Source: Geosiphon pyriformis
Taxonomy: Eukaryota > Glomeromycota > Glomeromycetes > Archaeosporales > Geosiphonaceae
Length of the DNA stretch: 64,000 bases
Direction: 5' to 3'
Assembly: GCA_016748015.1 (NCBI GenBank)
Contig: JAAOMT010000430.1
Coordinates: 129,698 to 193,697 of the forward strand
Shown: in pieces, positions 1-22,254 of the stretch
How positions within the stretch are numbered: position 1 is the first letter of the stretch
How the letters are laid out: each line of letters starts with the position of its first letter
Program-made: the position numbers and the translations under genes
The notes under the pieces: generated by a model
The model's database searches: none
What the model saw: the letters and a program-made list of their open reading frames with translations, nothing else
What the model was told of the DNA's origin: nothing

Positions 1-946
1 TTAGAGCCCTGTGAGAATATGAAATGCGTTCTCCCCACTTCGGTTATTTCAAGATGCGATGAATTCGTAAATAATCTTAATAATATTGAAGTACCGGATG
101 TGCCCATGAACATTGTACATAACAAAGAATGGAAAGAGAAGGATGTTAAATTGTTAGAACGAACAAATCGTATATTAAGCGTTTTGTAGGTATTTTTTAT
201 CTTTGTATTGATTTTAAGAACTTTTTAACTATTCTTAATGCAGGGAGGGGGTATGGAACAATCCAGCATTTGCAACTAGCGAAATGCGTAGTTCTCAAAG
301 TGAAGGAACTTATATCACAGACATCGTTGTACCTTTGCTTCGGGCCGGTTTGGATGATCTCCCAAATGGTAGTATTTGTATGAGCACTGCGGAACGTCAG
401 AGTATAGCAAGTAAGGTCCGAAAAAGTCTTGGGGTGAATGAAGAAAAGAGTTCACACTCTCCCAGAGTGCCAATAGGGAAAAAACCCGATGTTATGGTGA
501 TGGAAAAATGTGGAGGTAAGATTTTTGAACTTGGTTATGTGGAATCTTCACGGGTCGTTTGCACTAATTCAAAAAAAGAGGATGATTCTATAAAATTGTG
601 GAGGGAAACCCTAGATGGAATAAGTCTCGTCGGTATTGCTTGTAGACCAACAAGTAATCAATTTGGTATTGTTGGAATTCAAGTGGCTGGTGAGGATTTA
701 TGTCTTAACGTTTTAGTGAGAGATGCAAATGGGATACCAAGATATTTCCATCTTGTCCAAGCTCAAATACCTTTTACAAAAAGTACTTCATGGCGTGTGA
801 AGCCTCTTGTTCATCTATTACTGACTTTGAGAAATATTACAATTGTAAACAAAAGCTTACTAATGCAGGCATTAGAGCAAGCTAATACACGTCCACCCCG
901 AAATGCTAATCCGAGTCCCACAGTTTCTTCACCATTATACGATTAA
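1..946 (+). CDS. Partial two-exon gene, C-terminal part of a hypothetical protein
   Basis: Reading frame 1 is open from the window edge. It continues across a proposed intron at 186-243 (GTAGGT donor, TGCAG acceptor, 58 nt), which joins the two exons exactly in frame: exon 1 is 1-185 and exon 2 is 244-946 (stop TAA). Without splicing the first exon would stop at TAG 187-189. The visible part is about 295 residues. It contains SEGTYITDIVVPLLRAGLDD, then GKKPDV, FELGYVESSR and KLWRETLDG, an arrangement I remember from lineage-specific, multi-copy hypothetical proteins of arbuscular mycorrhizal fungi. The PD followed by a Glu in a hydrophobic strand faintly recalls a PD-(D/E)xK nuclease fold, but no Lys is evident and I would not assign activity. 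The 3' end is rich in Pro, Asn and Ser. No frameshift is visible, so it may be a functional gene. Confidence 0.7.
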
Positions 947-1458
947 TCTTTGTAATATTTTGATCCTTTGTATTTTTATCTATATCAATAAAATTGTCAT
1001 GATGGCGATTTATCTTATATATGAGTACCTGCGTGAAAATCTGACAAAAATCAAAAAATTAGATAATACAAACATAGTCACGCGTTATTTATCGGGCATA
1101 TGATAGATTATTAATTATATGCTTGTAGTACATCCCGAAATAGATTCCACCCCGAAATAGATCATATACGATTATCCCAGATATAGAACGACGTATTATC
1201 GGTGCTTCATTTTGATTGGGTAATCGCCATATATATCTCCCTACCGATTATCAATGATTACTTACCTCTCACGCTTCTTTTTTTTCTGCGAAAGTAATAC
1301 TATTCTTCTTGAGTAGGACATCGGCTCTAGGAATTATTCCTAACGGCTCGTCGAATTGCGTTGCTTTTGTACGTTTCTGCCTATCAGCGGAGCTAGTGTC
1401 TAGACACTTATTTAATACATTAAGACCATTTTTTCTCTGCATTCGCTTTATTATAACC
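947..1458. other. Intergenic stretch with a short direct repeat
   Basis: No convincing gene. The 12-mer CCCGAAATAGAT occurs twice with a 17-bp period at 1134-1145 and 1151-1162. The rest is moderately AT-rich spacer and presumably holds the 3' end of the upstream gene and the 5' flank of the helicase-like pseudogene. Confidence 0.5.
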
Positions 1459-4082
1459 ATGAACTCAACCAACAAACGAAAAGAAGCTGTCACGTCGGAA
1501 GAAACACCACCCACGAAGAAGTTATCACGACAGGCCCGAGCACGTAGAAATAAAAAACAGAGGCGTGAACAAGAACAGATTGTGATACATCAAGAACCTG
1601 GGATTGATGCAAACTCCCTCACAAGTTCCACGGAAATGAATTCGATAATAAATACCACCGATATAATTTTTGATCCGACTCGAGAAATATTACCGTTAAT
1701 TTTATAAAATGTCTTTGCGCTAGATACATTTGTGTTGATAAGGCTGTCTTAGTTATTTGCGTGGGTTTGTGGAACAGAACGGAGCCGTGACCGTCCTGCG
1801 CTTTGGCTAAGACAATTTGTTTGTTCCTCAAAATGTAATCTTGTCGCTGAGTCATTTAGAGATAGGTTTTTTTTGCTCACCTGTTGCTAGTGGCAAAACA
1901 AAAACACTAAGAGAAATTCTCGATTCCTTAGCCAAAAATAGAGCAGATTTGCCTTGTTTAACTGGATTTCATATCGTAAAACTCTTAGCAATGAGACTAA
2001 AGCTAAAGTTGAAATATTGCAAAATTCAGGACTTCGTGTATGCCATTATCAGGAAAATGAGGGTAATTTAGCTATACGCGACTGGGATGTTATTATTGTC
2101 CAAGTTGAAAGTACCCATCGTCTTAATTTCTATGGAAGGCGTTCTTACGTAGTTATCTTAGACGAAAATAATGCTATTATGCGTCAAATGTCTAGTGGAG
2201 TTCATGCACGTGAATCTGAAAATGCTATGCGGGATTTATTAAAATCAGCTGTTCATGTTATTTCTATGGATGCATTTGCAAACGAATCGACTTTAAACTT
2301 TTTGAGACAATATCGAGGTGGAGATATAAGAATTTTTGATAACGAATATAAGCCACGTGAAGGTGAGACTGTTAAAATTCTTTATGATCCAGATAAAGGA
2401 TCAGAAGCTATACATAGGGGTCTTAAGATGCTTCAGGAAGGTAAACGAGTTGCTTTTTCAATGACCTCATGCAAAAAAGCACGAGCTTTGGCAAACCAAG
2501 CTTCCAAATCACAAAAACCAGACGGCTCGCACGTTTTATCACGAGTTTATTTTGGCCAAATGGATGGAAAGCAACGGCAGGATGACTTTGCCGATATTAA
2601 TGCTACTTGGAGTGGTCTTGATTGTGTGGTTTATACAAGTACTGTAGAAGCTGGCATCTCTTTTGAAATTTCCAATCATTTTGATGCAGTTATAGGAATA
2701 AGTAATATTAATACAGGAGTACATGCTGAAGCTTTTGCACAAATGTTTTATCGAGTTCGCGATTGCCCATATCGTATTATTTCTCTCTATAATAGTAAAA
2801 AAACTGGCATTTTCAAAGAACCGAATCGTGATCTCATTCGTGCTGAACTTTCTGCCCTGAGACCTGGCGACTTGCCAACTGCTATAAAAGGACATCGTGA
2901 ATGGAATAAAATTAACGACTGTTATACACTTCATTCATCTCCAGCCGTAGAGACTTATATTGAGGTCGAATATGAAAGACGCTTATCGGCCAAATATTTT
3001 CCTGAGATTCTTTGTAGTCTTATTGCTAGTACTGGAGCAACTCTTGAATTAATTTTGGCAGAAGATACTGAAAAAGTTAACAGAAATGAAATTTCTCATA
3101 CTATTAAGAATATTGAGAAAAATATTAAAAGCTCGGATGCAGAATCAATAGCAAATGCTCCAGATATTAGTCCCAATAAAGCTGAAATTCTTAAGCAAAA
3201 TCCTATATGCTCTTTTGCTGATAACATGACTTTACAACGTCATTATTTATGGAGAACATATGCTTCAGGTGATATTGGTGGCAAGGATGATATTCGAAAC
3301 TGGGGTATGAATAATGATAATTGGATTAAGCTTTGTAATATAGATTTCGTAAAAAAATTCAATAATCCTGAACCTTTACAACATTTTAGAAAGCTGGCAT
3401 ATTTCAGAAGACAAGGTTCCAATGCGACAAAAGCTATAGAAAATCTAAAAATCAAAGAAAAAATGCAATGGGAAGATTCACATGAATCTATGGATCCATC
3501 TTCAGTCGATTTGCATAAATTTTATTCAGCAAAACAATGGGAAGCGGTACATAATCTTGTCCAATCAATAGGTTTAGAGATATAGATGATATGAATATTC
3601 TTTCTGGTGATGATGTGGCTAAGACTTTCGAGCAATTACGGGAAAAAATCGTTAAAATTCGAGAAAATGCATTGTTACTCCTTGGTTTTAAGACCAGAGC
3701 TAAAGGATTGCTCGATCTCAATGCTACAATAAAATTTATTAATGCGGTAATGGGTAGTTGGTACGGTTATACTATCAAGAGTGGTGCAACTTGTGTAGGT
3801 TCTAAAGAACATCAAGTATGGAAAAAAACGTATTGGATTGATCGCAACCCATATTGTGGAGCTGGCTTTAATAATCAAGAAGTAATAGCTAGGAAGTTAG
3901 AATATTGTCCTATAGCTCCAGTTCTTCCATCATATAAGTCAAAGGTAATTGACGAAATTCAGGATCTTTTCGATTCAATACCCATTACTACTGATATCGC
4001 CATTTCAAAATTCAGTAATGAGGTTTGTGAAAAGAGTTCTTGCAATAACATAGTTGAAAAATCCGTAACAGATTTGCCATAA
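1459..4082 (+). pseudogene. Origin-binding-protein-type DNA helicase (herpes UL9-like superfamily 2), frameshifted
   Basis: Pieces in three frames read as one protein. A basic N-terminal piece (1459-1707, many Lys/Arg, ending FDPTREILPLIL) is followed by a Walker A-like SPVASGKT at 1877-1900. The main body (about 1954-3585) contains a Walker B-like VILDENNAIMRQMSSG near 2152-2200, the helicase-core segment YTSTVEAGISFE near 2632-2667 and a motif VI-like QMFYRVRD near 2740. The C-terminal piece is at 3591-4082. A frame change is needed near 1954 and another near 3575, where GF..DIDD continues the domain in the next frame; the link between 1707 and 1870 is unclear and could be an intron or a deletion. 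Proteins of this type unwind replication origins in herpesviruses; related helicases are, from memory, repeated in arbuscular mycorrhizal fungal genomes, where their role is unknown. The three breaks suggest an inactive copy. It is co-oriented with the Penelope-like element 180 bp downstream. Confidence 0.75.
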
Positions 4083-4264
4083 TTGCCCATTTTCATGTTT
4101 GATTGCAAGTATATAAGCGTCGCTTGTAGAGTGGTTGTAGTGCGTCGACTTTCGAACTTAGGCTAACACCCTTTAAAAACGATTTTCTGCGCAGACAACC
4201 GTTTGCTTTACTTGAGCACTCTTATCTTATACTTGCCAACAAAAACCCTAACCTTTTATCAAAT
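4083..4264 (+). promoter_or_regulatory. Candidate 5' leader and promoter of the Penelope-like element
   Basis: This is the spacer between the helicase remnant and the first ATG of the reverse transcriptase frame. It contains a TATA-like TATATAA at 4110-4116, about 150 bp before the ATG at 4265, and one telomere-type CCCTAACC at 4246-4253. A promoter role is inferred from position only. Confidence 0.35.
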
Positions 4265-6837
4265 ATGTCTCAATCTACTTCTCAACCTACTATTTCTTCT
4301 AATGACATGGACATTGATGTCCCCCTAATGAACATTAGGGAATCCGTCGCTGTCCAAAAGCTCACTGACCAGCTTGTGCTCAAGATCGGTTCTTCCGGTC
4401 TTGATAATATGTCGTTCCCTCAAATTCCATAGCAAAAAAATTATGTTCTTTTTCTATTTCATAAGATAGATGATCTGAAACGTAAAATTGTTGCTAATTC
4501 AAACCGTGACCCAAAATCTTTTCTACCCACTCCTCTTTATGATCCTTCTCAATTTCTTTCCGATGACTTACTCATGATTGATAATACGCTTGGTGAAGTT
4601 TGTGTGGCTTTAAAGCATTCTCGTGAAAATCTGCTATTGGCAAAAATTGCCGAGTATGATGCTTTCATCGATAAGTCTCCCTCAAAAGTTCATTCGGATG
4701 TCGCCAATTTAATCAGTAAAGTTCATACTGATGACTTGGTTTCCGATGAAGCTAAGAGTGGTTTACTGGGAATTCTTGATAAAGAAATTAAGGAGTTTGA
4801 AACGTTCATTAAAACTCGTCCAGCTTTAAAGGACTTGGTCATTGGTTCCGCTGTGGTTAGTTCCACTCCACACAAGCCTGTTTTGAAAAAATATTTTTCT
4901 AATAAGGTTGTTTCTGTAGGTTCTGGTATCGAAACCTCCCCCAAAACGCAAGGTTCAGCCATCTCCGGCCAAGAAGAACCTCCCAAACAAAAAAGTGAAA
5001 AATGCAAAACAAGGCGATCAAAAGGGAAAAAAAAGGTCTCAAAAACAACGGTTAAACAACCGCTCGAAGCCGAAAAATCAACGAAGGTATTGGTTCACAA
5101 TATTTCTTCTGTGATTATTTCCTCTTTCGTTATGGATTTCTTGAAGTTAGGTTCGAACTTTCAACTTACTTCGAAACCCTCTCTTGTTAAGACCTATCAA
5201 ACGTGGTCAGGCGTCAGGAAACAAATTCTCGAAGCCTATAGTAAAATCCCTGAAAGGAAAAGAGAAAGCCTCTTAATTTTCAATCAGCGTTTACTCTTTG
5301 CATCCGACTACATTTTAAATAATTTCAATGTCCTTAAAGATCGTAGAAATAGTATTTTTAATATCTCTGGATGTGTTAATAATGTTTTATTATTTTTAAT
5401 AGATCACGACTTCATTGTCGTTCCATTAGATAAAAACATGGGTCTCACTATTTGTGATTATTCTCATTATAACACTGAAATGCTTAAGCTACTTTCTGAC
5501 ACTTCGGTTTTTAAGCTTTGTGATGCGCCTGACGTTTCGCACTGCTCTAAATTGCTCTCGGATCATATATCTGATTTTTATATGAGCACTGACTTAAGAG
5601 AACGTAAAAATACTCATGAATACTTGCGAAAAATATTTTTTCCTTTACGTAATTCTGAATTACGTTTCCCTGAAATTTATGGATTATGGAAATTACACAA
5701 AAACCCTTGTGTTCTTCGTCCCATTACTCCTAATCATTCTTGGATTATGTCCGCTGCTTCGCGTTGGTTAGCCAAACGTTGGCAACCCTACATTAAAAAA
5801 TGTCCGACAGTCCTCGATAATTCTATGAGTTTTATTTCGAATCATTATCATGGCTATGTTACTGTTGCTACATTTGACATCAAGAATATGTATACCAATA
5901 TTGAAATTCGTACGCTTTATCAGCGCATTTGGGCTTGGCTGAAATTTCTTTCACCTGATCGCTCAAATTTTGAGAATCTTTGGTTGACCTTTGAAGTTAA
6001 ACTTATGAGGCTTATTCTTGAGAATAGCTTTGTTCTTTATGAAGATTCGTTCTATCACCAGCACAAAAGACTGGCGATGGGTACTTCAGCTGCTCCTGTT
6101 ATCACGAATTTATTCTGTGCTTCTATTAAACACAAAATTGTCGCGACTATGGGTAATACTTTTGGGTCCACTATTGTTCGTCGTTATTTGGATGATATTA
6201 TCGTTATTTATGATCCTCATAAATTCGATATTAATGCCTGGGTACGGTATTACCACTCCCTTGCTGTTCCTTCCACGTTTATTTTGGAACGCACCGATAA
6301 TGACGACTATAATGCCGTATTTTTGGATTTGAATATTTCGGTTTTCTGGTCTGATAATCTTACCAAATTTTCAGTCCAATCTTATGACAAAACCATGTAA
6401 TCCTCATATATATACTGATCCTCGGACTTTTTATCCCAGGAAATATGTTATGAACTGGATTCAGGGCGAAAATATTCGTCATATTCGAAATAATTCGGAT
6501 TTTTCCAGTTACTGGGTTCATATTAAGAAATTTAAAGCTTGACTGCTGGCTAGGGGCTATCCCCTGTTTGTGGTTGACTTTCAACTTAACAAAATACTTG
6601 CCTTGGCTTCTTGGTTCTCATGGAAAAAGAGATTTTTCTAGTACCATTGTTAAGATTCCTAATCTACCGGAAAGGCCTCTCATATGTAAAGTCATTCATG
6701 ATGTCATTTTCCCTTCATTTTCGGGTCATGCCAACTCCCTGGTACCTATAGTTACCCGTGGTAGTAGTGTTTTCAACGTTGTTAATAGAGCCAGAAGGAC
6801 TTTAATCGCCCAAAAACTGGCTGAACCTACTTTTTAG
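4265..6837 (+). pseudogene. Penelope-like element reverse transcriptase, no GIY-YIG endonuclease seen, broken copy
   Basis: The frame starts at ATG 4265 (MSQSTSQPTISS) and is interrupted by one in-frame TAG at 4430. It is then open to TAA 6398-6400, so the real N-terminus is about 100 codons upstream of the long open stretch starting at 4574. Penelope-type reverse transcriptase blocks appear in order: VPLDKNMGLTICD (near 5420), YGLWKLHKNP (near 5680), RPITPNHSW, TFDIKNMYTNI (near 5870), AMGTSAAPVITNLF (near 6075) and the catalytic RRYLDDI, with YLDD at 6185-6196. FLDLNISVFW follows. A one-base shift at about 6398 restores homology, a TGA at 6540 sits where Trp is expected (before LLARGYP), and a further shift near 6560-6630 leads into 6568-6837. 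The C-terminal part shows no GIY...YIG signature, as in endonuclease-deficient Penelope-like elements, which are known to attach to telomeres. Telomere-type repeats lie just downstream. This copy is inactive as read. Confidence 0.8.
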
Positions 6838-7003
6838 TGTTCGCCGGTGTTGGATCCCGATTGGTTTGCATGATCTGGCTTGACTTGGTGACGGCCGGCT
6901 AAATTATTTTATCCTTGGTCCAGCCATGTGATTGGCCATTGTCACGGGCTCTAGCACATGATTAGTTTTGTTCTATGATGCTAACCCAATCCTTTACACC
7001 TGA
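6838..7003 (+). other. Probable 3' untranslated region of the Penelope-like element
   Basis: This non-coding stretch of moderate GC lies between the last recognisable element codon and the telomere-type hexamers. Its composition matches the element and not the AT desert that starts at 7034, so it is taken as element 3' UTR. No hammerhead ribozyme core could be identified by eye. Confidence 0.45.
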
Positions 7004-7033
7004 TCTTAACCCTAACCTTGACCCTAACCCTAA
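7004..7033 (+). repeat. Interstitial telomere-type repeat array (CCCTAA)n
   Basis: Five consecutive hexamers: TCTTAA, CCCTAA, CCTTGA, CCCTAA, CCCTAA. The units are in C-rich orientation on the + strand, as at the left end of a chromosome. The array is at the 3' side of the plus-strand Penelope-like element. The two variant units differ from CCCTAA by one (TCTTAA) and two (CCTTGA) substitutions. Confidence 0.8.
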
Positions 7034-8570
7034 TACTTATTTATAATTTTAAATTGGCTAAACAAAAAGTTAATCATATCCAAATTGGTAATTTGATTAT
7101 AAATAAAATTTTTAATATTAATGTAAAGCTTATTTAATTAAGTAAAAAATTAACTTAAAAAATTGAAGAATTTTTTGTTAAAAATTTAAAAACATATTAG
7201 TTTTTACAATATTAAAAAAATAACAGCAGTCTATAGTATTAATAATATTATTATTATTAAAAATAAAAACAATCATAGAAACAAAATTTTTATAACTATT
7301 ACTATTGTTAAAAATTAGAATATATTGTCAGAAATTAGAACATATTATTAGAAACTACTAAAAAAAATATTTAATTAATATTAACAAAATTAATATTAAG
7401 TATAATTAAAATATATATAATTAATGAGATATTAATATTTATTTTCTTAGTATTAACAACTCTAATACTTATTTTGATTATTACAAAATTATTATTAATA
7501 TTTTTAAATAATAGTATAATCTTAATTTTAGTATTAAACTTTTCAATTTATTAATTCAAAATCCTAAGTTATTAATTATAATTAAGAATAAAAAAACAAC
7601 AAAAAAAATCAATTTTAATTTATATTTATATTATTATAGAGTATAAGTTACAGTAATTTACTACTTTAAGCACTATTAAATAGATATTTTAACCAAATTG
7701 CTTATCTTGGTTTTTACAAAATTCAGAATTTTAATATTATACTTTTAAAAAAAAAGCCATAATTAAGTTCACCAATTTTTTTTTTCCTAACAATAATCAA
7801 ATTACTTTTAATATAATTTCTTTAACTATAATTACTGAAGATAAAATACTTGCTATTATTTTTTTATTTAATAAAAAAAATTTAAATATTTTTAATTTTT
7901 TTAGTAAAGCTGTTTTAATTAAAATAAACTAATAATAATAATATATATTAATGCCAAAACAAAATAAATAAATATTAAATTAATACTTATTAGTAAATTA
8001 ACTGACAAAATAATTATAAAACAACTTATAAATTAATTAAGTTACTAAGTTAATTAATATTATTAGTTGAAATTTAAGATATTAATTAATATAAAATTAT
8101 TCTTATAATTTTTACTATTAATTAGTATATATTATTATTTCAAATTATCATTGATTATTTTATTAAATTATTCAAATTATTATTTAATTAATAATTTAAT
8201 TTATATAAAACACAAATATAATTAAATTATAATGATCAAATTATATAATACACTAAACTATATAATATTAAAAATTTCCCAAAATATTTAGTAATTTAAC
8301 AAAATATTTAACAGTTTACCAAAATAATTTATAATTTGCAGAAATAACTTGTAATTTAATAAAATATATCTTTAGTTTACCAAAATATTAAGAAAAAAAA
8401 ATGCTAGATTATAGAATAGTATTATAATAAGTTGTATAAAAGAAAAGCATTTTTTAAAACAATATATCTTAGTTAAAATTAATTTTTATTAAATATCTTT
8501 TTTATAAATTAATTTTAATAAAAACTTATCTTAAAAACATAAAAATTCTTAAATATTTTTTTATTAAGAT
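7034..8570. other. AT-rich desert
   Basis: Almost pure A/T with homopolymer runs and very few CG dinucleotides, starting directly at the telomere-type repeats. No open frame with recognisable similarity; short open frames are compositional. Probably decayed transposon sequence, but no relic could be aligned here. Confidence 0.6.
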
Positions 8571-8790
8571 TTAATGAACAAAATCCAACTACTGTTTAGA
8601 AATTAGAAACAAACTAAAAATTTTAGTGTTAAACATAGTTTATATGCTTTTTACATATAATTAGCTACTTAAGCCAGTTTAAACTATACTATATTAATAT
8701 AACAAAAGAAAACGTATCTAAAGACAACATCTTTTGAATAATATTAAACAAGATAACACTACAAACAACCAATCCAACTAATTATTTGAC
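8571..8790 (-). mobile_element. Hypermutated 3' end of a LINE (same family as 46491-51835)
   Basis: On the + strand this stretch aligns base by base with the 3' end of the better LINE at about 46501-46640. TTAATGAA starts both, followed by AACTACTGTTTAG against AACCACTATCTAG, then CAAACTA against CAGACTA and TTACATATAATTAGC against CTACATGTGGCTAGC. Most differences are C to T or G to A towards the desert copy. The match fades after about 8700. The coding part could not be followed to the right, so it is a fragment or too decayed. Confidence 0.55.
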
Positions 8791-11700
8791 TGTTTTTAAG
8801 GAGTTAGTTTTAATGCTAATAGACTTATACTTTCAAAAAAAAATTAAGTTAGAAAATATATTATTATTAATATTAACTGAATGTTTTAAATTATTAAACA
8901 TATTAATATTTTCTATGCAGTACTTTTTTTTAAAAAAAACTACTTTTCTTCTCAACTTATTAATAATCTTGTTAAAAAAATTCAAATAAATTATAAGTTC
9001 ATTAATCTTGAAGCTAAAAACACTGTTTAATGTAAAATTATACTTAATAAAGTATTTAAATACAATAATTAATGTATTAATAGGCTTAATAATAAACTCA
9101 ACCAAAATTAACAACTTAATTAAATTGAATTTCAAAAATATTAGCTAAAAAAAAATCAAAAAATTACTAATAACCATAAAAAAAAAATAAAAACCACTAA
9201 AAAAAAAAACTTAAAAGAATCTAAAAAAGCAAAAGCTTTAACATAAGAAATATTATTCACAAAATATGATTTAAATATTTTATAGTTCACAATCAGATAA
9301 TCTATTTTTTGACATTTAAAACAATATTAATAACTAGAAGTTTTTATCAAATATGTCACTTTCTTAGTACATTAGTTTTGACAACTGCAAAGTTTAAGTC
9401 AATTTAAAATTTAAATATAATCAGAACAAATCAAAAATAATGACCAGAATTTAAAAAACAAAAAATAAAATACATTTGGCTATCAACTTAGAGAATCATA
9501 TTATTAATCTCAAAAACAATGCAATCAAAAAAAAAATTAACCAACTTGGTTTTAAATCTATCTTAAAACAAAATTGTCTTCTTTTAATTTACAAAAAAAA
9601 AAATCCAAACATTATTTTTGCTCACTAAAACTAACTAGTAATTGAAAACAAATGCAGCAGCACAAAATTTTTTAAAATAAACAATTATGTATTGTCAAAT
9701 ATCAACAGACTTTAGCACAACATAGAAAACAATACCAAAAACACGAAAAGCTGTCTTAATATTAGCAGTAGACATACTTAATAACACATTACACAATACA
9801 ATAGCAGCAAAAAAAGAACCAAATTAAGAAACTACCAAAAACTTGGCAATTTTAAGAGTGATCAAACAAATAAAGCTTGTAAGTTTAATTAAAAACATAG
9901 TATTCAGAAAACTTTAAAAAGCAAATACTGTATAGAAAAGCTTTATATTGTTTTTAAAAACAAATTTCACATTCAAAAAACCATGTATAGAATGAAAAAC
10001 AGCCTTAATATGAACCAATTTGATATTAAAAATAGTATTAGATATCAAAATAAAGGTTATTTACTCAGTAAATCTTTGATAACTAATAATGATTTCTTAA
10101 GTATTACTAGTAATAATACCAAAAACCAAAAAAGATAATAATGATTCAGTTTTTATTTAATTAACTCAGTTCTCAAAAACAAGTGACTTAACAGAAAACT
10201 ATTGTTTTGTTTTTAAAATTGGCAAAAATCTATTAGAGACTTTATATTTGACAACATAATTAGTAATTAATTTTGGTCTATCTTAAATGATAGACTAATT
10301 GATACAACAGAGATTTTATCTAAAATTTTATTAGAAATTACAAAGAAGTTTGTGTAACAATAATAGAAGCAAGTAATTGTCTCACTTTTTTGAATCTTTA
10401 ATTTTTTTAATTATTTTATTAAAAGAGATAATATTAGCAATACTAAATATAAAAACTATAAAAAAAAAGATTTGCTTGTTAACTAGTCTATTATTAAAAA
10501 ATTTTGGGTTCTTAAAGAAAATAAAAACAACACTAAAACTAATTCAAATATGTTTTTTTAAAGAAATTTTAATTGGTAAAGAACTAATTAAAGATGAAAA
10601 AAATATTCAGCAGTCACTAAAGGCAGCTTTTTATTAATATCTTTAAAAAATATGACCAAAACATTATGTTTAGCTGTATTAATAAAAAAAAATTCTTTTA
10701 TGTTAAAATTTTATTAGTTATTATAAAAAAAGTAACATTTGTAGCTTTTTTACTTTTTGTTCTGATCATGATTATAAAATTAAAAAAACAAAGAGTTTTT
10801 GATTTTTTCTTAAATATTTTTGTTTCAATTTTATATTAATATTTTAAAATTAATTAATTACTAATTTTAGAAATTATTAATAACTTTTAAGTCTGAATTT
10901 AAAATGACTTTTTTGATATATATATATATTTTTTTTTTGTTTATTTTTTTTTATATTATTAAGTAGTTATAGTTAAAATTTTTTATAAAAGAGTTAATTT
11001 TTACAATAAAATAACTATATAAATTTTAAAGAATTTACAGATAAAATTTTTTTGTAAAAGAGTTAATTTTTACTGCAAAGTAATTATACAAATAATTAAT
11101 ACAAAATTATTTTCTTATAAGCTTAACAGCATAAATAGTTTAAAATATAAATATTTTGAAAAAAAAATTAACTTATTGGAAGTTTATTAAGTTCTATTAA
11201 CAATATTTAAAAAAAAATAGAAAAATTTCTAATAATATTTGATGTTTTTTTAAAAATAATACAGCAATAATTAAATTAATAATTATTTTTTTGGAAACAA
11301 CAATATCACAAAAATTAAAAAAAAATCTTTTTGAAAACTTAATTTATTATTTAAACAAAGATCTAAAAGTTATTAATACTAATACTTATACTATTTATTT
11401 TAAAAAACTTAATTACAATATTATCAAGTTTTGTAAAAAAAGATATTTTGTTGATTTACAATTTGTTTTTAAACTTAAATTTGAATTTAAAACTAACAAC
11501 AAAGACAAAAAAAACATTTAACCAGTTTATACAACTTTTATTATATTAAAAACAAATTTTTTAATATTTATAAATACTTAAATAAAAAATCAATTTTAAA
11601 TTACCATTTTTAATTACATTTTTCTTAGCTTTGTTTGCTTAAGTACAAATATTTAATTCATCTTTTAACTAATTTTTAAGACCAGAAAACTTTATTGAAA

Positions 11701-13275
11701 ATTTAATCTAACAGTCAAAATTAGTTTTAAACTAGTACTAATTTTTTTAATTATTTAATAGAAAACCAAAGTAAATATTTAGAAACATTAACTTATAAAA
11801 AAGACATTTCTGAATCTATTGAAAAAAAAAATAAAACAAAAAAAAAATTATAGACAACAAAAAAAATAAAAAAATAACTACTTATATTGCAAAAATTTTT
11901 AAATTTTCTAAAAAAAACATTAAAACCAGTTCTTAAGAGTGGTTTAACCAAGTTATTAAAGCAAAAAACACAAATAAATAAAATATAATAAGAATATTAA
12001 GAGCAATTTTCTATTTTTTTAAAAATTTTTTGGCAAATAATTCAAAAATTTGGCTGTTTCTTTTACAGAATATTCAATTTTTAAAACTGCTTTTTTTAAA
12101 CAGTTTATAAACAACAATACTTTAATTATTCTTCAAAACCACTTTTAAAACATTAAATAAAAATTATTAAAATCTATTATAACTTATATTAAAAAGTTTA
12201 ACAAATTTTTTAAAAGAATTTATTAACTTAAAACAAATACTTACTACTCTAATTTTTAAAATTTGGATTAATCTATCACTAATTTAAAAGATAAATTAAT
12301 CAGAAAAGTTTATTTATATGCTCTAACAAATTTAAATACTACTATTTAACATATTAAAAACTATAAAATAATTATGGAAAAAACAAATTGCATTAAATTT
12401 GTTAATCTTGTAATTAAAAAAACCAGTTTAATAGCTAAAAAAAAAATCAATTAACTTGTTAAGAAAGTTAAAATATACTTTGTTAACCAATAACAAAAAT
12501 ACTAATTATTACAATAATAAAACAAAAAAAATTTATTGTTTAGTAATTTGTCTTAACAATCAAACAATTATTATTATGAAATTTTCAAACACTAAAAATA
12601 CAATTGCCAAAAAATACAAAAAAATTAATAAAAACAAAATAATAAACATTATTTTTTTCAATAACAACAATTTTATAATTTATTATTATTTATTTACTAT
12701 TTTTTAAAATCTCAGTCTACTTATTATCAGTTTATTTTACAATAACTACAATAATATTATCAATTATTTTTAATTTAAAATTATTAATCACTAGCAAAAA
12801 AATTAGTTCAACTTAACCAATTTACTTTTCAAAATTGTTTTCAAATTAATAATAACAGATTTAATTTTAATAATCAATTGGTATTTTGTAATAATAATTA
12901 ACAGCTATTTAAATATTTTTACATTCAATAAGCTATTTTACAATACCAAAAAATCAAAATTTTTATCATATTGTACTTTTAAAAAGTAGAACTATAGTAT
13001 AACTACAAAATTTTTTTTTAACTACACAATAATTTTACTAACAAAAATAGCCAAAAATGCCAATATTTTAGATATATTTTTATTTGAATTTAAAGCAAAT
13101 AAATTATTATTCTTATTTAGCAATATAACAACTTCTTAAAAAAAGTTATTACAATAATATATTGTTACAAATTAGAATAACAAGTTAACAAATAAAAAGA
13201 TAGAACAAAATTATAGGATAATAGAAATAATTAAAAAAAAAATTACAATAAAAAAACAAATTAAATAAGTAAAAA
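8791..13275. other. AT-rich desert, probable decayed transposons
   Basis: Mostly A/T. Open frames of 60-100 codons here (for example near 8833-9135, 10377-10637, 11291-11521, 12456-12707) are Lys/Asn/Ile/Phe-rich with no motif and are treated as compositional. Around 10310-10345 a short stretch resembles the reverse transcriptase region of the plus-strand LINE (near 28410), which hints at an old plus-strand LINE, but this is weak. No RNA gene seen. Confidence 0.5.
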
Positions 13276-16203
13276 TTCAATATATAATAATGTATTGTTT
13301 TATTTGTCTTGTTGTTTTGGTCTGACAAATCTTTTTAATATACAAGGTCTGCAGTAATATTTGGTGATGATTGGCCATTTTTCATTGTTTCTGATATATA
13401 TGCTCATAGAAAATAACTTTTTCTCACAGTTAACACAAATTAATTTTGGGATTTGATATTATTGATTTCCTTGATTTGGAGTAAGATAGCCTACAGGTGC
13501 CAATTGTAGTTTTTCTTCTGCTTTTCTCTTGCTTTTTTCTTCTCAAGTTGGTAATAAAGGTAACTCTGCTCAGTAATTGTCAGCCCAAAAAACTTAATAG
13601 GTCTCTATTATTGGTAGTAGTATTGAGTCTTCAAATTTAATCAACAGTTTTTCTGGGCTTTGAGCTTTGAAGTATCTACACATAGCCAGAACTCATACAT
13701 GCTGTCTGTTAAAGATAATCTGTAATTCTTGCATATTCTAGTTGATGGTAACATTAACTTTGATTAACCAATTATTTTCTACAAGAGCTTAATATTGAGT
13801 GGCCTCCATAATAAGCACTTTGATGGGGATTTGAATTTCATCAATTTCAAAGAGAAAATTGTCAATTTTTTCTATCAGGATTTTAGTATTTCCATCTGTA
13901 ATTATGATTTGGGCAGTAGCTGCACAGTCTACTTGGTGATCTAGTTGATCTATGAGTTGCTTTATGATTATACTACTTGCTAATCTACTATCAAGAATTA
14001 ATTTGATGTCCATGTTTTTAACTTTAGTGTTAATATACAAAACAGTTATTAGTTTATCTTGATTAATAGTGGCTCTACTGAAAAAACTATTGTTATTTAG
14101 ATGGTCAATGTCAAAGAAAAAGATAGTGACAAGAGTAGTGTCTTCAGTAATAGTAATGAGTAGAATAGTATTATTGGTTTAATTTTGACTCAAAGAGTTG
14201 AGTATTTTTCTTATATCCTTCCTTTTTAAAGATGTAGAGCTAAAAAAACCTGGCTTTTAGTGAGACCAAGATATGAAACTTGATTTGGGTATTTGGTTGG
14301 TACTAGTTGAGATGAAGCATTATTCCAATTGAGAGGTTACAATAATTCACTGTTAATTTGCATTTAATTGTTGCTGAAGTTCTTTTATCCTTGGTTATAG
14401 TCAATTGTACGAGGTCTAAATAGATTATAGATAGAGTTTTGATACTGTGGTGCTACTTGAATTATTGACTGCAATGACTAATAGTAGTTCTGAGGCAGTT
14501 GTTAAGTATATGTAATTGGTTGTATGTATTAGGACAGTAAATACTAGAACATAGGGTATTGGAGTTCTATTGCTTGGAGATATCTTAAGTGTTGATATTG
14601 AGTTCCTCAATTTTGGTCTGCTAATTTCTGTCGGCAATCCTAAACAATATGTTCAGGTTTTTGGTAATAATAACAATTGCAAGAATCAGATCTCCAAGGT
14701 TGTTGTTGTTGCTAACATTCCTGTTGTTGGTAATATTTACTGCTGTTATTGTTTCTTTGTTGGGGTAACTGATAAGTTTTCGTGGTACTGGTTAAGAATC
14801 CCTCAATTTTTTGAGTTAATTTTTCACTTAATTGAGTTATTTTTGCATCAATGTTTATGGTTTTATTGATAGCTAAATTAACAGCTTGGATATGATTGGT
14901 TTCTTGTTTTGCTAACTTAAAATTACAAGCAAGGGTAACAGCATCTGGTAAATTTGTTGGATGTTGGAGTCTCATAGATTTTAGGAGGCTGTTCCTTAAT
15001 TTCTTGACAAATTAATTAAAAACTTGCATCTTAGTGTAATAGTCTTTTTCAATTGCCAATATTTGACAAAGAACTTGGTTGAATTGTCCAAGATAAATAG
15101 TCACTGCTTTGTGGTATTTTTGTTTTATTATACTAAATTGATTCTGTAATCTGATAAGAGTATTAGGATTGCAAAAGTATTTTAGAAAGACAAGTTTAAA
15201 AGTAGTGAAGTTGGTTGGTTTTTCTGTTAGGCTTTGATATCATAAGTTTGTAATTTCTGTTAAAAAAAAAGGTAGAGCTTGAATGGTCTTAGTATTATCC
15301 CAGTTGTTAGTAATAATATCTTAGTAAGCCATAATCTGGTGGGTAAGTGGAGTTTTACTAGTTAATGCTAAGGGATTTAGTGTTTGCATGCTAGGAGATT
15401 CTTCTGGTGCTAAGGCTGGTTGTTTTTTTTGTTCTTGAAATTGCTCAATTGTTTGATGAATGTTTTCTCTATTAATGTGGTTGTTAATTCTGTTAGAGTT
15501 TGTGCTCTCAGTGGTTTCCAAGTTGATGTATCTTCTCCTGTTTTACTAGCTGTAAGGATTAGATTTCTAAACAATGATCCGTATTTTCCTAAGAATCTGG
15601 TCTAATTGTTGTAATCTTATAGGTGTTAATTTCCAGAAGTTTGTGGTGTTCTTGCCTAAATTTTCATGGTTGGATTAAATATAATTCTACTTTCTGGTAT
15701 CTAATGATATAGTGAAGTTGTTGAAGAAAGGAATCTTGGTATCTTGTTGATTGTGGAGTGAACTTGTTTTTGTGCAGCTGCTGTGCTATCAGATTTGGAC
15801 TTGCATTTTTCAGGATTAGGCCTTGCTGATTGTTTTACTTAAAAGTAATGTTTTTCTGTATAATACTCAATGTCTTTATTGAGTATACAAAGAGTTTTGG
15901 CTATGGCTCAAGTAGTAGTATTCATTGAGTTGGCTAATAATTTTTGATGAATTTGTTCTTTAAGTTTTCCAATGTCTGTTATTTGGCCTAGAAAGCAGTT
16001 AATTTTTGCATGCAAATAGTCACAAAATTGGTTTTTTGTGATAATAGTTTCTGTGAGTATTTTTAAGTCTTTTTGAAAGTATTAAAATAATGCTTTTCTA
16101 TACAGAGTGTGATCTTTTTCTACTGTTTCAATAGTTGTCACTTTTGTAAATTTTCGAAGTGCTCTGTTTTTGTAGATTTTATAATCTTACAAAAAGCACT
16201 AAA
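13276..16203 (-). pseudogene. Ty3/gypsy element E1, 5' internal part (Gag, protease, start of Cys-rich domain), degenerate
   Basis: Read on the minus strand, this starts from a primer-binding-type stretch at about 16186-16201, next to the LTR end at 16204. Gag follows (about 16150-14600). The segment 14975-14712 (LPDAVTLACNF, KLTQKIEGFL) matches the Gag C-terminus of element A (LPEAVTLARAL, ELSKKIESYL). A retropepsin follows at 14040-13745 with LILDSRLASSII (DSG changed to DSR) and EATQY. After a tail, the beginning of the Cys-rich domain is at about 13570-13290 and aligns with E4 at 58260-57960. Many stops and frame breaks are present. Homology disappears near 13276, where the AT desert begins, so dUTPase and the rest of pol are missing or unrecognisable. 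The LTR family is the same as E4. Confidence 0.7.
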
Positions 16204-16913: not shown

Positions 16914-17765
16914 TATTACTCATAGAATATAGGAAATATATTAGCACATAAATTAGCCAATTAGATGTAACCATAGTAAATGTAGAATTCCAGAATTTTT
17001 CTCAAAAGAATTGCAAGATTCCAGGAATTTCAGAATTTTCATATAAGGAATTGCAAGATTCCAAAATTCTAGGATTCTTTTCAAAGGAATTGCAAGATTC
17101 CAGGAATTCCAGAATTCCTGAGGTGAAGAATTGAGGAATTGAGGAATCTCAATTATGTATATATAGTGGTAGTATTAGAAGTAAAAAAGACAGACCTTTT
17201 AGTTTAGATTTAATCTAAGCAATCTTCCAATTCACAAATATCAATAAATAATTATTCTCTATCTTTAATTCACTCTCCACTATCAACACTTCATGTTGAT
17301 AGTGATCAATACTTAACCACACTGGAACAATAGCTCTTGATCATGACTATTGATGGGATACTAACTTACAATTGCTTTTACTCATTTTTTTATCTTCTTT
17401 TATTTTTTTCTATTTTCTTTTTGTTATTTCTTTGGTTTTACTAATTGATTAAGGATTAAGTGCTAAAGTACAGATGTCATAAAAACTGGTAAAAAACCTG
17501 TAAAACAAAAGTAGAACACTTATAGATTTGAGAATAGCTTATCAAGAAAATTACCAGCCATCATACTAAAAAAAAAATTTGACGGAATTGTGATTCCAAA
17601 AGGCTACTGAAAACAATACTTGAATCTTTGTCTATTATACAAAGAACTCAACAAAAATCTTCAGATACAAACAACCTTTAGATAATATTAACACCAGAAT
17701 ATTAATCAAGCACCAAGTTACAGGTTTGTTATTTGATTTGAGATCCCAAATAATCATCTGTAACA
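16914..17765 (+). repeat. 5' LTR of element B
   Basis: Begins TATTACTCATAGAATATAGG (ancestral TGTTAC likely, by comparison with 33714) and ends CTGTAACA. It matches 26096-26907. It has a TATATATAG box near 17158-17166 and an AATAAA in ATCAATAAATAATTA near 17240. Imperfect copies of GGAATTGCAAGATTCCAG repeat between 17010 and 17120. Confidence 0.85.
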
Positions 17766-17767
17766 TT

Positions 17768-17784
17768 TGGTGCTCTCTGTGAGG
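17768..17784 (+). promoter_or_regulatory. Primer-binding site of element B
   Basis: TGGTGCTCTCTGTGAGG starts two bases after the LTR terminus CA. The TGG start fits pairing with a tRNA 3' CCA end. The tRNA was not identified. E3 (minus, 32266-32282) has the near-identical TGGTGCTCTCTGTAAGG. Confidence 0.65.
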
Positions 17785-17799
17785 TATAATCTTACAAAA

Positions 17800-19580
17800 A
17801 ACCAGCACCAACTACACCCATCCAAAAGTGACAGAATCAGAATCAATAGAAGCAAACTATTTAAGATTTGCAAAATCCTTATTTTAACACTACTGTTAAT
17901 ATTTGGGATTAAACCACAATCACATATTAGCGAAATTAGCCTTCAATTTTTATGTTAATAAGAGAATTGTTTATCTGTTAGGAACACTAGTAAATACCAA
18001 GTCAGCAAGAGAAACCTTTTACAATAAATTAATTCAAAATACTAGCCTACCAACAAATCACAATTTTGCATTTATTATCACAGAAATCAATAAAGAAATT
18101 GAATATTACACCCAACAAAGATACCTAATTATATATGCCAGTAAAGGAAAAAGAAAACTGCAAACACTGACAATAACACCCCAAAGGATACAACCACCTA
18201 CTTGGAAGAAAACCAGAGTTGAGTCACCAAGCAACCCATCCTACTACTATATACTTGGAAATGTTATCAACATAACATCAGTAGGCATATTCACATCAAA
18301 TACAACATTAACATTTAGACAACTCCCATTTTAAAGTAAACAAAAAAAAGCAGAATTACTAGAAATCTATGGCAATTATTTTAAAGAATTTAAATCGTGA
18401 TCACCAACACCATCAAAATTCCAATCACCATCACCTCAACCAGATTTTGGAAACACAAGTCTTTGGGAGATAATGGAATCAGAAGAGGAGGAAGAAAAAG
18501 AAGCTGAAGATCAAGAATTTATCTACCAGAACCCAATTCCGAAAAACTCAAACATTGAAACCTCAAACTTTCAGACTTAGCAAAATCCAAATTTAGAAAA
18601 TCCAAAAGTTAAAACTCCAAATTTTCAAACTCAGCAAAATCAGAACAATTAAAATCTTGACATTAATAATTAACAATACTTAACTCCAGTAATTATTATC
18701 AACCCACCACCAATTGCTCCACAACAACAACCACTGTCATAACCCCAAATTCAATTACTACTTCAATCACCATAGCAAATAAACTTGAATCAAATGGCTT
18801 ACATTTCAATAGCAAAACTCAAAAAGTTTACCAGTAAAGAAGATGACACCCAAGTATGACTGAATAATGTGAAAAAAGCCATTACAGTCAATGAATGGGA
18901 TGATGCCAGAGCCATGCAAACCATCTTCTATTTTCTCCAGAATACCGCCAATTCATGATACCAAAGCTTGGTTAACAAATCCCAAGATTTTAATGCATTT
19001 AAGCTTGTATTCCTATAATATTTTAGTAATAATAACAGTATTAATCACCTAGTCAATACTTTTACCACCATTAAACAAAGAGAAACTGAAGCAGTCACCA
19101 CTTATTTGGGACATTTTCATAGAAACTTGTGCCAAATTTAAGCAATTCAAGCTGACTACTTTACAGTGCCACTGATTCTAAACCAGTTTATTTGTGAACT
19201 ACACAATAGCATCTTCTAACGTGTACACCTAATGTATTCAGCAGACCTTTAAGCTGCAGTTACAAACACCAGAGATTTTGAAGCAGCTAAACTTGAAGCT
19301 AACTATGCCCAAGCCATAAATTTAGTAATGAACAGATTATCTGAATTGAATTCTAAGTTGAAACAATTCAGTAATTTTATCAACCAGAAATTAGAAGGAT
19401 ACTTAACTAACAATCAAGCAGTTTATCAACCTTTATAATAACACAATAATCAAGGAAACACAAATCATTTCCAAAATCAATTGCATCTATTATCTTCCAC
19501 CAATCAACAGTGGCAACAGGAGATGTATGTTTGCCACTACTGTGGTAAACAAGGACATTTGAGAATTGACTGCAGTTAAG
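17800..19580 (+). pseudogene. gag: Gag of element B, degenerate
   Basis: Coding similarity to element A Gag runs through this region. The N-terminal part (17903-18334) has NFYVNKRIVYL and EINKEIEYYTQQRY, parallel to YYINAKINY and KIHREIEQYANK in A. The capsid-like part (about 18790-19300) has KKAITVNEWDDARAMQT, parallel to QKAIQANNWNDQRAIQT in A, and RETEAVTTYLGHF. A CCHC zinc knuckle, CHYCGKQGHLRIDC, is near 19531-19572 and would bind genomic RNA. TGA stands at conserved Trp positions, including the W of WYQSL, where A also has TGA. It is Gln/Asn-rich between the capsid and knuckle. No intact frame remains. Confidence 0.75.
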
Positions 19581-21540: not shown

Positions 21541-22254
21541 ATGATCTACATGATCCTAAAAGAAAAAGAACCAATCAGCAGCTGTACATTAGAATTGAAA
21601 TCAAATTTCAATCCTAATTCAAACTTTGACAATGATGATGATAAAAACAATGATTTCAGTTCTGCCCAATATGGCAACAAAATTAATAATGATTTAAACT
21701 CCAATACAAATTCTGAAACATATATTGCACTTCTTGAACTTTTCAAAAAGCAGAAACTCAGATGGTTCAGTGATAATAATAAAGGTATTATACCAGAACA
21801 TGTGCATGATACCAATACAGAGTTTGATCTAAGATATTCAGGAAAAAATTCCATCAAATTGGAACCTTATTCATGTACTTGCATTGATCTTAAAATAGCA
21901 CTGGAAATTTCAGCAACAACAATAGTTTATTTAGTATCTAAGAGTAACTTAGCCAAAAAAAGAATCAACATCAGAGGAGGAATAATTAACACAGGATACA
22001 TAGGAAATATTATTGCTATGCTACAAAATAACTCAGAAAAAACATATATTATAGATCCAAACAAAAAAATAGCACAGGCAATATTTCTGCCTCTAGTTAA
22101 AATAGCTCAATTAATATTAGTGAAAAACAGGGAAGAATTAGAAATTACAGCTAGAGCGATACAGAGATTCAGATCAATGGGTAGAATAGATGTACCAGTT
22201 AACATGACAGAGGAAAAAATTGTTAACAAGAAAGAAATTATTTCCACCTGTTAA
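21541..22254 (+). pseudogene. dUTPase domain of element B, catalytic residues altered
   Basis: The trimeric dUTPase motifs are recognisable in order: motif 1 NTEFDLRYS (Asp to Asn at the DAG position), motif 2 VSKSNLAKK (RSS-type loop altered), motif 3 GGIINTGYIGNIIAMLQNN (the catalytic Asp of the ID..Y motif is Asn), motif 4 IAQAIFLPL, and motif 5 decayed to RFRSMG. The family hydrolyses dUTP to dUMP and pyrophosphate and limits uracil in cDNA. A 237-codon open stretch remains, including a Glu/Asn/Asp-rich linker before motif 1, but this copy should be inactive. Confidence 0.8.

Follow-up and report, generated by a model that had tools for sequence, protein, structure and literature searches.

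Does the CCCTAA tract at the 3′ end of a Penelope-like element (PLE) in the fungus Geosiphon pyriformis record the attachment of that element to a chromosome end? The element lies in a stretch of 64,000 nucleotides (contig JAAOMT010000430.1, positions 129,698 to 193,697; hereafter the window, on the contig that we call C296), where it occupies positions 4091-7033 of the plus strand, ~2.9 kb in a decayed state. We conclude that it is probably a dead, endonuclease-deficient, telomere-attaching PLE that belongs to a known kind. Its attachment to telomeres, as a past activity, is supported by a single 3′ junction together with a 5′ fragment near a telomere on contig C387. A preliminary description of the locus had proposed that this fungus has, or had, a telomere-targeting Penelope lineage. 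We keep "had" and not "has" because the four loci found to bear its reverse transcriptase (RT) are all broken by stops or frameshifts.

The element and its 3′ flank are laid out as follows.

4091..4264, plus strand: 5′ block (promoter or 5′ untranslated region (UTR)), common to the independent fragment on C387
4110-4117, plus strand: TATATAAG in the 5′ block
4243-4253, plus strand: AAACCCTAACC in the 5′ block
4265..6400, plus strand: open reading frame (ORF) with an N-terminal part, a basic linker and a Penelope-type RT; ATG at 4265, at the same position in C387
6185..6196, plus strand: YLDD catalytic motif of the RT
6402..6837, plus strand: ORF C-terminus, read in shifted frames as far as the TAG at 6835-6837; without a detected endonuclease domain
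6838..6980, plus strand: 3′ UTR of 143 nt, counted from the TAG at 6835-6837
6981..7033, plus strand: degenerate CCCTAA tract of 53 nt, C-strand, joined to the element 3′ end
7034..8200, no strand: AT-rich flank (~14% GC) 3′ of the tract, common to contigs C79 and C68

The start codon, catalytic motif and strand order all agree with the plus-strand Penelope-type RT of the preliminary description. Pfam RVT_1 matched the ORF at 4265-6400 with E 4.9e-07, and the sole other Pfam match listed for it, DUF5863, fell below its cut-off. Because an in-frame TAG lies at 4430-4432, the uninterrupted frame is restricted to 4574-6400; at ~6398 the RT frame is disrupted and coding continues in other frames. 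Codon 6835-6837 is TAG in the window and in C79 and CAG in C68, which is frameshifted shortly upstream, and the next in-frame stop in the window is at 6871. Measured from this TAG to 6980, the 3′ UTR is 143 nt long and not 166 bp as first given.

The tract itself is far beyond chance expectation. A local alignment to (CCCTAA)n covered 53 nt at 6981-7033 with a score of 53, or about nine hexamers with decay, and the last 27 nt (7007-7033) form a 6-nt tandem repeat of 4.5 copies. The tract of C-rich hexamers reported earlier is real, with its length understated. The second-best (CCCTAA)n score in the window was 20, and among 30 simulated sequences of 60 kb with the dinucleotide composition of 1871-7034 the maximum averaged 19.5 and never exceeded 24. 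These C-strand repeats are of the genome's own telomere type: among the matches listed, CCCTAA arrays stand at contig ends, and four perfect units gave 321 forward and 208 reverse matches, compared with 0 for the reversed control. The best single GC changepoint in 5001-9000 falls after 7030, inside the tract, with 37.3% GC before it and 13.7% after.

We then asked how many independent junctions the genome holds; all copy lists and counts given here are lower bounds. The RT protein had at least eight matches: one on C296 (the window), one on C79, two on C68 and four pieces of a relic on C315. The alignment of C79 and C68 to the window begins at 1869, spans the element (90%) and continues for another ~5 kb at 83-91%, the shared flank reaching 11916 in C79 (near the contig end) and 12372 in C68; an additional piece of C68 matches window 16916-18591. 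The three loci are duplicates or haplotypes of one locus. Because these flanks are shared, the common 3′ junction counts as one event, and we rejected C79 and C68 as independent support for it. Both retain the (CCCTAA)n tract in a more decayed form (score 40 in C79, 38 in C68). The similarity of the C315 relic (60% identity, query residues 416-606) ends near window 6594 and does not reach the 3′ UTR. Inspection of further 3′ junctions, as the preliminary description had proposed, gives only a partial answer: C79 and C68 are not independent, C315 is truncated before the 3′ end, and the C387 fragment has AT-rich DNA without CCCTAA on its 3′ side, with its 5′ side to the telomere.

Within the element, 126 C-to-T and 108 G-to-A changes separate C79 from the window, alongside 25 in the opposite direction and 9 transversions; a difference in one copy or another affects 63% of CpG sites and 25-33% of the remaining Cs. 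Over window 1870-7033, nearly all differences of C79 and C68 are C-to-T or G-to-A, at CpG foremost but in all contexts, and the bias is absent from the AT-rich flank. Signatures of repeat-induced point mutation are described in a passage of a Rhizophagus paper as undetected in Gigaspora margarita and in Mucoromycotina species.

The fragment on C387 provides a second line of evidence. Query 4083-4573 also matched C387:610463-610813 on the minus strand (81%). This match covers window 4091-4443 at 81% identity and stops at 4091, with none further upstream. With 25 transversions relative to the window in 340 sites, when C79 shows just 9 over its full element, it is an independent copy. At its end (position 611870), C387 carries ~300 nt of CCCTAA and variant units; going inward, the order is telomere array, 757 nt, element 5′ block plus ~60 ORF codons, and AT-rich DNA that begins from an A-run. 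The fragment thus lies 0.76 kb inward of the array with its 5′ side outward, which is the orientation that attachment by the 3′ end predicts. GC changes from 42.5% to 15.8% at a changepoint where the AT-rich DNA begins. The 757 nt between array and fragment are GC-rich and have no other match in the genome, nor a convincing one among the examined loci and homologues. For scale, by-eye counting gave 26 ends with telomere arrays, including ends on contigs of undetermined length, and DNA no more than 1.5 kb from such an end makes up 0.03% of the genome.

The 5′ block contains an inverted repeat in which 4098-4113 pairs with 4228-4243, enclosing a palindrome at 4177-4204. This inner palindrome is mostly preserved in C387, and Rfam had no match there. 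We also rejected the idea that CCCTAACC at 4246, in this 5′ part, was left over from telomere capping, as C387 has CCCTAAC there within the continuous shared block.

The junction could instead be uninformative on mobility, the PLE having come to lie beside an old interstitial telomere tract by chance insertion or rearrangement. In its favour, of the 12 places at which CCCTAACCCTAAD was found in 124.7 Mb (2 in the reversed control), the element's own tract among them, ten are more than 16 kb from the start of their own contig, a distance that refers to the contig start alone; the other two are no more than 1.3 kb from one. The single independent 3′ junction points the same way, as does the position of the element ~85 kb from its own contig's telomere and in the opposite orientation. 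Such tracts are nevertheless rare, and this one reaches from the 3′ terminus of the element to the GC step; moreover, the strand is as predicted, an endonuclease was not found and the C387 fragment faces the telomere. Query 6400-7040 matched only four places in the genome (the window, C68, C79 and C315), so the other CCCTAACCCTAAD tracts do not stand beside a 3′ UTR of the element recognisable to this query. Taken together, we regard a fortuitous junction as quite unlikely.

A word-based search for the RT in 5.8 billion proteins, in which 8000 candidates were scored, found 11 relatives at E up to 0.001, and a three-row profile found 14 at E up to 1e-4. Three of these, P0009, P0013 and P0016, carry both RVT_1 and PF01541 (GIY-YIG), a combination that is described as the PLE architecture (PMC3846280), and the RT of the element is related to each of them. 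P0009 matched the element RT directly (phmmer E 1.0e-5), and with the three-row profile, which also holds P0001 and P0002, the values were 2.4e-15 for P0016, 2.6e-30 for P0009 and 2.3e-33 for P0013. P0001 (25% identity) and P0002 (27%), the top two relatives, lack GIY-YIG. A genome search with P0001 returned only three loci, all previously found. In the PDB, the single sequence retrieved no RT, and a profile matched bacterial RTs only weakly (best 4.3e-05); a phage collection and viral contigs had no match. In a tree of 17 proteins and 630 alignment columns, the window RT, P0001, P0002 and P0012 fall on one side of a branch with support 96/96, and the three homologues on that side are all without GIY-YIG.

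The element likewise appears to lack this domain. The preliminary description had seen no GIY-YIG and suggested a profile search of the C-terminus. Our profile, built from 10 homologues, recovered all 10 at 87-128 bits (its own rows, hence not an independent control) and detected no GIY-YIG when the three near-full copies (window, C79 and C68), in their 3′ regions, and window 1-14000 were translated in six frames; the best score was 5.5 bits. P0001 aligns to C79 up to residue 576 of 650 and to C68 up to 562, ~130-140 residues past its own YLDD, and for the remaining C-terminus the likeness to the end of P0001 (VTRGSSVFNVVNRARR vs VVYTRAKTLGQYLSRAKF) was judged by eye only. Between stop and tract 110-143 nt are left, too short for a GIY-YIG domain, the Pfam model of which has 78 positions; the 3′ UTR therefore has no room for one. 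Judged by eye, the ORF seems to end near the last motif of the GIY-YIG-less homologues P0001 and P0002.

It is conceivable that an endonuclease-bearing PLE lost GIY-YIG in this copy and had been inserted by ordinary target-primed reverse transcription. The three near-full copies derive from one insertion, so a single ancestral deletion could suffice. Against such a loss, the ORF seems, by eye, to end near the terminal motif of P0001 and P0002, and the RT groups with these two proteins. We consider this explanation highly improbable.

Several observations weigh against a telomere-attaching, endonuclease-deficient PLE. The junction of an element 3′ end with C-strand telomere repeats is present in only a single independent case. 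That copy is internal, ~85 kb from the sole telomere seen on C296 and on the strand opposite to the expected one, so that of the two loci only the C387 fragment is a chromosome-end copy with its 5′ side outward. On the 3′ side of that fragment there is AT-rich DNA and no CCCTAA; this could reflect initiation inside the RNA, or a later deletion. Other retroelement-like pieces, recognised by eye, adjoin telomere arrays too, so telomeric position alone is weak evidence and not specific to the element; in 61 telomere-pattern loci, many of them overlapping, the RT protein had no match. In the RT tree, long branches lead to both the window RT and P0012. P0010, without a GIY-YIG motif, falls among the GIY-YIG rows (grouping of the window RT side with it was rejected, AU p 0.0036), as do P0008 and P0014, which are short and also lack the motif. 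Across the whole tree, GIY-YIG status is not clustered beyond chance: 74 and 112 of 500 shuffles, under two labels, were as low. Finally, a search of window 3900-7200 against Rfam, with E allowed up to 1, gave no match and hence no hammerhead ribozyme, although decay could mask one, and no direct repeats longer than 27 nt were found in 3900-7300, that is, no partial terminal repeats of tandem copies. Hammerhead ribozymes in terminal parts and partial terminal repeats from tandem copies are both common in PLEs and not required.

How would an element without an endonuclease have been joined to telomere repeats? The mechanism proposed for endonuclease-deficient PLEs is priming on the exposed 3′ end of a chromosome (PMC3846280, PMC6431247), and it agrees with the orientation of the element here, with the order of its parts and with the lack of a detected endonuclease. 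The element RNA would have been reverse transcribed from the 3′-OH of a G-rich (TTAGGG) overhang, and hence the coding strand would run inward from the chromosome end and then into CCCTAA. The 5′ side would afterwards have been covered by other DNA, and rearrangement may have buried the insertion site. The locus presumably then became three copies, two of which would have decayed mainly by C-to-T change.

A variant of this mechanism, and not one exclusive of it, is that the element itself encoded the CCCTAA tail, as Terminons are reported to do, with pairing to the overhang still effecting attachment. A tail of 53 nt exceeds a short pairing stretch, and no second 3′ end was found for comparison; we hold an encoded tail to be possible, if somewhat doubtful. 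More speculatively, and with less confidence still, the PLE of this lineage may have patched chromosome ends in two ways, at eroded telomere repeats (window) and at a broken AT-rich end (C387). On C387, synthesis would have started inside an A-rich stretch of the element's own RNA, with telomerase capping the product afterwards. For a PLE of Anolis, synthesis is reported to begin inside the transposon RNA (PMC11167929), and Penelope RTs and telomerase are described as having common ancestry (PMC3846280, PMC6431247). If true, two-way patching would mean that a telomerase-like RT heals chromosome ends in nature.

Upstream of the element, the window contains genes on the same strand.

1870..4082, plus strand: upstream ORFs, probably outside the element

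ORF 1954-3585 resembles a herpes-UL9-type (Herpes_ori_bp) helicase, and ORF 3591-4082, without a Pfam match, is presumably the tail of this helicase. An ORF beside the helicase, on the same strand, stops 8 nt before the shared 5′ block. Terminons are large composite elements that include accessory ORFs. We found no support for the helicase ORF as a part of the element: among the matches listed, C384 has helicase pieces without a PLE match, and C315 and C387 have no helicase match. The match to C79 and C68 starts at 1869, and at these two loci the helicase frame extends further upstream. An opposite-strand ORF in that upstream part of the two loci looks like a tyrosine recombinase by eye and has no Pfam match; with the helicase it perhaps forms another mobile element. 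Elsewhere in the window, at 21541-22254, a dUTPase-like ORF (PF00692, E 1.6e-12) is perhaps of a retroelement or virus. A Pkinase_fungal match, below its cut-off, is in line with a fungal host, and Sel1-repeat-like and gag-like proteins of a type known from Rhizophagus may point to a glomeromycete.

The telomere arrays of this genome have features of their own. Towards the interior, CCCTAA is mixed with CCCTAT and AAATAT units, and runs of perfect units reappear 0.7 kb in on C75 (L073, within the variant array) and 1.3 kb in on C383. Frames that by eye resemble the RNase H of long interspersed nuclear elements (LINEs) lie directly inside the arrays on C11 (L066) and C109 (L079), where the LINE parts read inward, as 5′-truncated telomere-capped copies would. 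Ty3-type pol-like frames, also identified by eye, occupy the same position on C72 (L038) and C181 (L092).

PLEs linked to fungal telomeres include Coprina of basidiomycetes. We found no report of such PLEs from arbuscular mycorrhizal fungi among the open-licence papers listed; in two transposon papers on Rhizophagus irregularis, a term search of the main texts did not return Penelope, and a PLE profile is among the tools of one of them. The Geosiphon copies that bear an RT were found broken and are a fossil record rather than a working system. As described in PMC3846280 and PMC6431247, Athena/Terminon elements of bdelloid rotifers are alike in having a Penelope-group RT, no fused GIY-YIG, reverse-complement telomere repeats at the 3′ end and attachment to chromosome ends. 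Unlike them, the element here is ~2.9 kb and broken, no hammerhead was found, and its repeat is CCCTAA and not (ACACCC)n or (TCACCC)n. The telomere-localised family 4 of Mycosphaerella graminicola, putative PLEs in the account of PMC4522978, is alike in its RT gene and in a 3′ end that carries telomere hexamers, one to three of them, and is directed away from the telomere. That family differs in size (3.4-3.5 kb) and in abundance, with 34 full-length copies and presence at 26 of 41 chromosome ends, whereas here there are few, broken copies, of which only the C387 fragment was seen at a telomere. PLEs of Agaricus bisporus are also linked to fungal telomeres (PMC7473861), a likeness by description only. 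If our conclusion is true, the sporadic distribution of telomere-attached PLEs without an endonuclease would extend to an early-branching fungus, beyond Agaricus and Mycosphaerella, the published fungal cases known to us.
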